Positions 9,643 to 12,208 of a stretch of 64,000 bases of DNA are shown here, piece after piece. Source of the DNA: Candidatus Brocadia pituitae (GTDB lineage Bacteria > Planctomycetota > Brocadiia > Brocadiales > Brocadiaceae). The first letter of the stretch is position 1. Each line of letters opens with the position of its first letter. The position numbers were made by a program, and so were the translations under genes. The stretch spans positions 2,054,613-2,118,612 of the forward strand of contig AP021856.1 in the NCBI GenBank assembly GCA_017347445.1, read 5' to 3'. Below the pieces are notes generated by a model that worked only from the letters and a program-made list of their open reading frames with translations, was not told the DNA's origin and made no database searches.

Positions 9643-9964
9643 CATAGGTAAGCGCTTAAAGAAAGTTGTCATTCGAGCGCATAGTGGATAATTTGTGTGG
9701 AGGGTGGTTGAATGAAATGGCTGGGAACGGTTTACCGTTGAACGGAGTGTTGCAACGGCGAGAACGTGCTTACGTTGTGCGGAATTTGATGTGGCAGGCG
9801 ATGCCATGCCCTATCGTAGTCTAGAGGGTGAATTTGAGGTGTATGCCTTTTCGCGCCGAATCGTTCGACTAAGCTCACGACGAAGTCCACCATTGTGAAT
9901 GTATCCGTATTTTCAACATTTAAAGAAGTTGAAATACCGGTATTTGTATTGTTTTATAAAAGCG

Positions 9965-10207
9965 ATGCCGTTCAATTGCAATTTGGAGTTTATCAACAGT
10001 TCTCAGAAAATATTAAAAGAGGTATTGACACTTCCCATCAAGGAACGGGCGTTTCCTGTTGATGATCTTTTGGCTAGCCTGGACCAACCAGACAAACAGA
10101 TAGACAGTTTATGGCGTAAAGAGGTTGAAGAGAGGATTGCTGCATATCAGGCCGGCGAGATCAGGACTGTAGCACTTGACGAAGTTCTGTCAAAATACCG
10201 GACATAA
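9965..10207 (+). CDS. Addiction-module antitoxin-like protein (RelB-related, solitary)
   Basis: The stretch LTLPIKERAFPVDDLLASLD followed by LWRKEVEERIAAYQAGEI and a C-terminal DEVLSKYRT is the hallmark of the short 'putative addiction module component' antitoxin family (about 75 residues). The open frame extends upstream to 9899, but that part does not look like the family, and the start (ATG 9965, or TTG 9980) is uncertain because no ribosome-binding site is seen. The partner RelE/ParE toxin normally found next to it is missing: the next gene is an unrelated protease fusion. It may be a relic or act on a toxin elsewhere. Confidence 0.7.
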   Translation: MPFNCNLEFINSSQKILKEVLTLPIKERAFPVDDLLASLDQPDKQIDSLWRKEVEERIAAYQAGEIRTVALDEVLSKYRT

Positions 10208-10231
10208 TGCAGAGTAAAGGAGGATAAGTCC

Positions 10232-12208
10232 ATGGCAAAAAGGAAGAAAGAGAAGCGCGTTCTGGATGCGCGTCCTGATACGCTCGATTTTCGTGATAAG
10301 ATGTATGTACCCACCCTGATGGAAGTACCAACCTGCATTGATCTTGATGACTATAGGAAATTGTGCGTCCCTGTCCTTAACCAGGGTGCCGAGGGGGCCT
10401 GTACCGGCTTTGGTTTAGCGACGGTGGCGAATTATCTCCTCCGTAAGCGTAAGGTGGTACCGGAAACTACCTCGGTAAGTCCACGGATGTTTTATGAAAA
10501 TGCCAGGCGCTATGACGAATGGGTGGGAGAAGAGTATGAAGGTTCGAGCGCCAGAGGGGCAATGAAGGGTTGGCATAAACATGGGATTTGTGCAGAAACG
10601 CTCTGGCCATACAACCCGCTCAAACAAGATCGGCATCTGACCTATGAGCGATTGAAGAATGCAGCAAAACGTCCTTTGGGCGCCTATTTCAGGGTGAACC
10701 ATAAGGATCTCGTTGCCATGCATACCGCACTGGCAGAAGTAGGGATCCTTTATGCAACCGCCCTTGTCCATGACGGCTGGGATAAAATTGGTGACAATGG
10801 AGTAATTCCTCTTCATGATGAGATTCTCGGTGGACATGCTTTTGCTATTGTAGCCTTTGATGATCGGGGTTTTTGGATTCAGAATTCCTGGGGGGATACA
10901 TGGGGGAAAGACGGATTTGCCTTAATTCGGTACGATGATTGGTTGAAACATGGCACCGATGTCTGGGTAGCCCGGTTAGGCGCCCCGGTTATCTTGCAAA
11001 CACCGGAGGCCGTCGCTACGAGTCAGTCGAGTATAGCAATACAAACGAAAACGTATGCCTATCAGGATATCTATCCTCATATCATAAGTATCGGCAATAA
11101 TGGTTTACTCAGAGAAAGCGGTACCTATGGCACATCAGAAGCAGAGGTTGCCGCCATCTTTCGTGATGATTTTTTACGGATTACCAGGGATTGGAGCAAG
11201 AAAAGAATCCTTCTTTACGCCCACGGAGGGCTTACCAATGAACAGACTGCTATACAGCGTGTTGCAGATTACCGCACCGAAATGTTGGGAGCAGAAGTGT
11301 ATCCGCTTGCATTTATCTGGAAGAGTGACTTTTGGACGACATTGACCAATTTATTGAAGGATGCGGTGAGCAGGCGACGACCTGAAGGGTTTCTTGATGA
11401 TGCAAAGGACTTTATGCTCGACCGGCTTGATGATGCATTAGAGCCACTTATTCGAATGCTGGGCGGCAATCTCATATGGGGTGAGATGAAAGAAAACGCC
11501 ATGGGCGCAACAGTAGCATCGCAGGGCGGTGCGCATATTGCCATGAAATATCTCGCTGAATTGTTGTCAAAAGACGCATCTGTTGAGGTTCATATCGCAG
11601 GACATAGTGCCGGAGCCATATTTCACGCCCTTCTTATCCAGATATTGACTGAGACAGGGAAGATAACCTCAGGACCGTTGCAGGGAAAAAAAGGCTATGG
11701 ATGCAGGGTCTCCTCATGCAACCTCTGGGCCCCGGCATGTACGATAGCATTATTTAAACAAACCTATTTGCCCGCAATTCAAAACGGAGGCATTGGGAGA
11801 TTTGCCCTTTTTACCCTTACGGACCATGCTGAGCAGGATGATCATTGCGCATCGATCTATCATAAATCGCTTCTTTATTTGGTCTCCAATGCCTTTGAGG
11901 AAAAAACGCGTATTCCTTTGTTCCGTGACGGAGAGGCGATTCTTGGCATGGAGAAATTTGTAAGAGCCGACCGTGACATAATGAAGCATATCGTCAAAAA
12001 AAAATTCGAGTGGGTTCTCTCACCGAACAATGCCCGCGAGGGTTCTCCAAATCATTCGACGGCAAAAAGCCATGGTGATTTCGATGACGACGAGGCAACG
12101 CTGCGCGCTACCCTTGCCCGTATCCTGCAGAAATCAGAGGTAAAGGTCCCATTTCCTATTCACCGTTCCGCATCTTCTTTGCAAAATAAGAGACAGAGAT
12201 TGGCGTGA
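10232..12208 (+). CDS. Papain-like (C1) peptidase fused to an alpha/beta hydrolase
   Basis: A 658-residue two-domain protein. Residues about 1-255 form a C1-family cysteine peptidase: Q51 and C57 in NQGAEGACTGFG, H202 in GGHAFAIV and N218 in QNSWGDTWG make up the papain oxyanion glutamine and catalytic triad. Residues about 320-560 look like an alpha/beta hydrolase: strand RILLYAHGGL (325-334) and nucleophile elbow HIAGHSAGA with S459. A linker (255-300) separates them, and the C-terminus is basic and disordered. No signal peptide or membrane segment is seen, so it is probably cytoplasmic. A strong AAAGGAGG precedes the ATG. The substrate is unknown. Confidence 0.82.
   Translation: MAKRKKEKRVLDARPDTLDFRDKMYVPTLMEVPTCIDLDDYRKLCVPVLNQGAEGACTGFGLATVANYLLRKRKVVPETTSVSPRMFYENARRYDEWVGEEYEGSSARGAMKGWHKHGICAETLWPYNPLKQDRHLTYERLKNAAKRPLGAYFRVNHKDLVAMHTALAEVGILYATALVHDGWDKIGDNGVIPLHDEILGGHAFAIVAFDDRGFWIQNSWGDTWGKDGFALIRYDDWLKHGTDVWVARLGAPVILQTPEAVATSQSSIAIQTKTYAYQDIYPHIISIGNNGLLRESGTYGTSEAEVAAIFRDDFLRITRDWSKKRILLYAHGGLTNEQTAIQRVADYRTEMLGAEVYPLAFIWKSDFWTTLTNLLKDAVSRRRPEGFLDDAKDFMLDRLDDALEPLIRMLGGNLIWGEMKENAMGATVASQGGAHIAMKYLAELLSKDASVEVHIAGHSAGAIFHALLIQILTETGKITSGPLQGKKGYGCRVSSCNLWAPACTIALFKQTYLPAIQNGGIGRFALFTLTDHAEQDDHCASIYHKSLLYLVSNAFEEKTRIPLFRDGEAILGMEKFVRADRDIMKHIVKKKFEWVLSPNNAREGSPNHSTAKSHGDFDDDEATLRATLARILQKSEVKVPFPIHRSASSLQNKRQRLA

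Follow-up and report, generated by a model that had tools for sequence, protein, structure and literature searches.

A leaderless papain-type protease fused to a predicted alpha/beta-hydrolase: a candidate envelope effector family of Candidatus Brocadia pituitae and its relatives

A 658-residue reading frame of Candidatus Brocadia pituitae raises the question of what a papain-type protease and a serine hydrolase would do in one chain that carries no export signal. The frame lies in a stretch of 64,000 nucleotides (the window) from contig AP021856.1, part of a genome of 4.08 Mb in a single contig. A first-pass annotation of the letters had proposed the reading frame and a strong ribosome-binding site, and both are found where it placed them (Table 1). 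Full-length orthologues with 74-84% identity to the fusion occur in the Brocadiaceae. The ten neighbouring genes of the window are housekeeping by Pfam and encode T2SSE-type ATPases, a PmbA/TldD protein, an ion channel, a ferritin-like protein, dihydroorotate dehydrogenases, RuvC, a Mur ligase, and a spermidine synthase. No description of a papain/hydrolase fusion was found in the open-access literature, PADLOC gave no match to the gene, a search of E. coli DNA for the fusion gave no match, and NCBIfam holds no fitting model for the family. The sampled plasmid homologues are named 'C1 family peptidase' in RefSeq/GenBank records.

Table 1. Positions in the window of the fusion gene, its predicted domains and sites, and the gene upstream of it.
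Feature	Residues	Positions	Strand	Basis
Solitary Unstab_antitox gene (PF09720)		9965-10207	+	E 5.8e-14 from likely start 9965
Shine-Dalgarno GGAGG		10219..10223	+	8 nt before ATG, read from sequence
Whole gene, 658-aa papain/alpha-beta-hydrolase fusion		10232..12208	+	ORF and translation
N-terminal segment (PDTLDFRDKMY..P), possible pro-like segment	9-33	10256..10330	+	aligns with xylellain N-terminal segment
Papain (C1) domain	34-250	10331..10981	+	PF00112, fold match, conservation
Papain catalytic codons	Q51; C57; H202; N218	10382-10384; 10400-10402; 10835-10837; 10883-10885	+	conservation in 81 rows
Variable interdomain linker	251-274	10982..11053	+	lower pLDDT near 251-280, variable alignment
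Predicted alpha/beta-hydrolase domain	275-632	11054..12127	+	predicted topology, conservation, weak DUF900 in relatives, viral fold matches
Predicted hydrolase sites	HGG 331-333; S459 (GHSAG); D531; H614	S459 11606-11608; D531 11822-11824; H614 12071-12073	+	
C-terminal tail motif FxxHRSASSLxxxR, on variable linker	641-654	12152..12193	+	conservation

By sequence and model, the N-terminal half is a xylellain-type papain (C1) domain, for which proteolysis is predicted. Pfam Peptidase_C1 (PF00112) scores 36 bits on it (cut-off 20.7) and also matches 67 of 67 full-length homologues. The Gln-Cys-His-Asn residues are present in papain order, as had been read from the letters, and in an 81-row alignment Cys57, His202, and Asn218 are invariant while Gln51 is kept in 80 rows. 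Among solved structures xylellain comes closest (3ois, phmmer E 1.2e-15), and the papain fold was confirmed against the same structure (Foldseek E 7.2e-16, VIA Z 28.5) with an AlphaFold2 model of the whole chain, which was built on an alignment with 81 homologues and has a pLDDT of 88.3 and a pTM of 0.87. The phmmer alignment begins at residue 4, ahead of the N-terminal segment, in which Asp16, Asp19, Arg21, Asp22, and Pro33 are nearly invariant among the homologues.

The C-terminal half has, in the model, the canonical order of an alpha/beta-hydrolase, with the GxSxG elbow, the acid, the histidine, and the HG(G) loop all present. The modelled elements run from strand 325-330 with the HGG loop through strand 356-363, strand 452-458 with the Ser459 elbow, and helix 461-473 to strand 493-499, strand 521-529 with Asp531, and strand 592-597, followed by His614. 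The GHSAG serine had been assigned correctly in the first-pass annotation, but the rest of its site was missing there; Asp531 and His614 complete it, and Asp537 is also invariant. In the 81-row alignment Ser459 and the HGG oxyanion loop are each kept in 80 rows, Asp531 in 79, and Asp537 and His614 in all 81. Both predicted active sites are thus complete and nearly invariant, which argues that the fusion is not a product of chance. A C-terminal half without a hydrolase fold had been named as the outcome that would speak against the annotation; a whole-model query of a viral predicted-structure library instead returned an alpha/beta hydrolase (E 2.1e-3, probability 0.99) and adenovirus ORF19 (E 5.1e-3, probability 0.98), a group of proteins that we take to be lipase-like. 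A profile search of the PDB with this half alone gave no significant hit, and in the whole-model PDB fold comparison (VIA-align) papain fills the rows, so that missing hydrolase rows carry no meaning. No Pfam family scored above its cut-off in this half of the window protein (Lipase_3 reached 11.9 bits against 22, and Abhydrolase_6 fell below its gathering cut-off). The label 'lipase' follows only from the predicted fold and from the pairing described below, and lipid is a putative substrate.

By sequence similarity, the hydrolase half has kin among stand-alone hydrolases whose genes lie beside caspase-like genes. The B. pituitae genome itself has a second, stand-alone relative of this half, a protein of 511 aa that the hydrolase profile matches with E 3.4e-25 and that belongs to a three-gene set (G000:C1:3396414-3400469; L018 5915-9970, minus strand) with a 363-aa caspase-like protein and a 494-aa protein. 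The caspase-like protein has GHG and DCC motifs and no Pfam match. The same order of hydrolase, caspase-like, and third gene is found in another planctomycete (G117, L139). On a Mesorhizobium plasmid the hydrolase is followed by a 'caspase family protein', with phospholipase D-like and trypsin-like genes, and in Sinorhizobium meliloti ml28 the order is phage-type lysozyme, hydrolase, caspase, and pYEATS. Divergent members of the fusion family occur in such surroundings as well: in S. meliloti M162 the order is a CHAP gene, a divergent papain-hydrolase, and a GDSL-lipase/caspase fusion gene, and in R. leguminosarum 248 a divergent member lies near trypsin, YEATS-associated, and caspase genes. 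The GDSL-lipase/caspase gene (L199 6963-8879) directly follows the papain-hydrolase gene on pSymA of M162. Caspase-like genes near the fusion gene are rare, being found at 3 of the approximately 93 loci scanned.

The proposed search for the same domain pair was run over 84,980 species genomes, in which 578 candidates, some of them perhaps papain-only, passed tblastn. The two-domain chain was found at no fewer than 80 full-length loci (at least 80) in about ten phyla, namely Planctomycetota, Pseudomonadota, Bacteroidota, Nitrospirota, Chloroflexota, Acidobacteriota, Thermodesulfobacteriota, Verrucomicrobiota, Cyanobacteriota, and one MAG labelled Myxococcota. The two domains are inherited together. 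The distribution is patchy, with a high-scoring hydrolase half in 9 of 199 sampled Planctomycetota genomes. A phage origin of the full chain was considered and rejected; phage records give only papain-like pieces with about 25-42% identity. IMG/VR holds one full-length locus (L145, 46% identity) and a papain half alone (L144 1139-1912, 257 aa, 57% identity) between phage-like genes.

An N-terminal peptidoglycan hydrolase precedes the papain domain in 16 of 67 full-length homologues, as GH19 (PF00182) in 13 and Amidase_2 (PF01510) in 3, and two more homologues have a short helical extension. A quick tree places the GH19 fusions in one group with a support of 98, consistent with one gain; the amidase fusions require two changes on the best tree, and a single origin is also possible. 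Relatives on Paracoccus and Roseivivax plasmids are trypsin-papain fusions, and their genes adjoin a divergent hypothetical protein of more than 2,300 aa (L147 1-9638, L151 1-7788, L152 1-7608). The hydrolase has decayed in some members. In L010 (1336-3513, minus strand; genome G027, same order) GHSAG has become GNGAG (S459G) and HGG has become PGC, while the papain site is intact, so some lineages can do without hydrolase activity. The S. meliloti M162 protein and the Paracoccus trypsin-papain proteins likewise lack the hydrolase signature and keep a recognisable papain part. What stays constant is thus the protease, and the hydrolase can decay. The L010 protein has a C-terminal tandem repeat of the GGPSTWPGRR type, and a caspase-like ORF is found further upstream of this family member (L027 2033-4189).

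The chain ends in a motif with the family consensus FxxRSASSLRxRR, set behind a linker of variable length. The motif has a relative entropy of 19.1 bits, compared with 5.9-6.4 bits in shuffled tails, and lies within 20 residues of the C-terminus in 65 of 67 homologues. A divergent clade (L011, L036-L038) has another ending with a shared DLxY; in two of its loci (L036 and L037; family f76) the gene immediately after the divergent fusion gene is a conserved one of about 600 aa (MNGSLILFGI...). The tail was considered as a shared sorting tag and rejected, with no convincing copy on other ORFs of the loci and other high scorers that look like shadow ORFs. It was also rejected as an encapsulin loading peptide. 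In a test that covered PF04454 only, this family was found in 6 of 8 planctomycete carriers of the motif and in 0 of the 8 carriers that were sampled from other phyla. The tail may act in cis as a latch or may be a docking tag, and both readings stand.

The fusion gene is usually solitary. In the main clade, the window included, it stands alone among unrelated genes, neither a sensor nor an immunity gene nor a defence island lies beside it, and no recurring family was found among 110 adjacent genes of relatives at 80 loci. Single loci have suggestive neighbours: an upstream PG_binding_1 gene at a distance of 11 bp (L063), an upstream patatin-like ORF, recognised by a GGGAHG motif, at 65 bp (L119), a divergently adjacent PG_binding_1/CHAP-like gene (S. 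fredii), and an upstream caspase (L022, same genus). In two genera a conserved three-gene set of small proteins with no assigned role is located close to the fusion gene (L019 3285-4765, L021 10362-11866).

The absence of a signal peptide had been noted from the window protein, and it extends to the family. None was detected by hydrophobicity in the first 40 residues of the window protein and 80 homologues; the proxy used here, which is not SignalP, was a mean Kyte-Doolittle value of at least 1.8 in 12-residue windows, which was never reached, compared with 2.24 for a PhoA-like control. The added remark that this is unusual for C1 peptidases was overstated, as leaderless prokaryotic C1A peptidases have been described (PMC10380794).

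Our main reading, to which we give a probability of roughly 0.4, is that the protein is a leaderless two-enzyme effector that acts on the cell envelope, in which a xylellain-type protease and an esterase/lipase-like hydrolase form a single-chain version of the caspase/hydrolase pairing. The conserved predicted sites, the co-inherited domains, the missing leader, the wall-hydrolase fusions, and the caspase-linked hydrolase kin are the observations that support it, together with the PG_binding_1 and CHAP genes next to the fusion gene at single loci. Its solitary setting in the main clade, the rarity of caspase-like genes near it, and the dead hydrolase of L010 speak against this reading. A leaderless wall hydrolase reaches its substrate only through a breached membrane or an exit, so the simplest coherent picture is a chain that also contains a hydrolase able to attack the membrane. 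The chain would be made in the cytoplasm and kept latent by the N-terminal segment, the C-terminal tail, or both. A trigger or cell breakage would activate the protease, which would cleave or license the hydrolase, other targets, or both, and the hydrolase would then attack envelope lipids; in the GH19 and amidase lineages the same chain would also cut the wall. The purpose may be lysis or antagonism, with the producer or a neighbour as the target.

A digestive or recycling enzyme, released by lysis or non-classical export to degrade the protein, lipid, and (with GH19 or amidase) wall of dead cells, is a rather unlikely alternative. It would suit the carriers, which are versatile soil and sludge bacteria, and some degradative neighbours: an M36 fungalysin with a P-domain (L019), an astacin with a fungal-type lectin (L068), an astacin with a patatin (L028), and alpha-amylases identified by Pfam (L024, L134) or by sequence similarity or reading (L021, L022, L025, L062). 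However, these neighbours are not conserved across the 110 adjacent genes, none of the 81 proteins has a signal peptide, and the partners of the related hydrolases are caspase-like proteases, a kind that has no digestive role.

The first-pass annotation had guessed at a self-processing effector or a stress enzyme. The contexts favour an effector-like protein with an envelope role, in which self-processing would be a putative step, and an intracellular stress or protein-quality enzyme appears unlikely, although the gene is leaderless, solitary, and equipped with its own strong ribosome-binding site. Its patchy occurrence, including its absence from several congeners, does not fit such a role, and a fused peptidoglycan hydrolase would be pointless in the cytosol.

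Delivery as an interbacterial effector by a type VI or extracellular contractile injection system is quite improbable. The missing leader, the wall-hydrolase fusions, and VipB (T6SS) genes in the genome of the window would agree with it, but two related genomes that were compared (G001, G006) have only a phage/eCIS-type sheath, four (G002, G005, G013, G027) have neither T6SS nor eCIS genes, three others (G004, G009, G010) have a sheath without the fusion, and no adjacent immunity gene recurs. Among 25 relatives, some of them drafts that could miss genes, presence of the fusion was not seen to track T6SS or eCIS. The B. pituitae genome has two VipB genes about 10 kb apart (G000:C1:1902276-1912973), and several congeners carry a phage/eCIS-type sheath instead.

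That the fusion is the toxin of a toxin-antitoxin pair with the PF09720 gene upstream is scarcely credible, despite the 24-nt spacing and shared strand, because tblastn with the antitoxin-like gene found nothing in 90 relative loci and five other PF09720 genes lie elsewhere in the genome. The upstream gene is as solitary as first described, and no toxin gene was seen next to it (its annotated start at 9899 is probably too early), but the suggested link to the fusion did not survive the neighbourhood comparison, and the antitoxin-like neighbour is incidental.

The envelope-effector reading can be extended to a single-chain lysis machine, in which the hydrolase would open the membrane, the wall hydrolase, where fused, would cut peptidoglycan, the protease would act as the gate, and the tail would serve as a latch or docking tag. 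Such a machine would add a papain branch, fused in cis, to the protease/hydrolase death effectors of bacteria, and we regard it as a doubtful proposal. If the envelope-effector reading is true, a family filed as 'C1 family peptidase' is a protease-gated lipolytic and sometimes wall-cutting effector in about ten phyla, and papain-type proteases join the caspase/hydrolase pairings of bacterial conflict systems. The coupling of protease and lipase in one chain would then be directly testable, with the dead-hydrolase variants and the conserved tail as handles. The wall-hydrolase fusions, the caspase-linked hydrolase kinship, the degenerate hydrolases, and the family-specific C-terminal motif are new here.

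Xylellain (PDB 3ois), a C1A peptidase from Xylella fastidiosa, resembles residues 2-251 of the fusion with 29% identity over 240 residues, the N-terminal segment included. Xylellain is a single-domain protease, whereas the fusion chain continues into the hydrolase and the C-terminal tail motif, and some fusion homologues, unlike xylellain, bear an N-terminal wall hydrolase. The DUF900 (PF05990) alpha/beta-hydrolases show a weak profile likeness to 28 of 37 hydrolase halves of the family (best E 7.8e-7), but the window protein itself is unmatched at the thresholds used, with no match at E 0.1. In MoxR-vWA/VMAP conflict systems the caspase domains are always accompanied by an adjoining alpha/beta-hydrolase gene (Kaur 2020, PMC7159879), and such hydrolases have been read as hydrolysing membrane lipids (PMC8195603). 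These pairs likewise couple a cysteine peptidase to an alpha/beta-hydrolase; the peptidase of the fusion, however, is papain-type and joined in cis, and Kaur's hydrolases may be of another clade. No MoxR, vWA, or VMAP gene was found among the ten window neighbours, nor a recurrent partner among the 110 adjacent genes. The nuclease-protease pairs (Hachiman, AVAST, canu), in which a pro-nuclease is activated by its partner protease (PMC12799240), share the logic of a protease that activates a destructive partner. That partner is a nuclease there and a hydrolase in the fusion, and activation by cleavage would hold for the fusion by analogy only. The architecture is a variation on a known protease/hydrolase theme, and its spread is wider than a single sequence could show.
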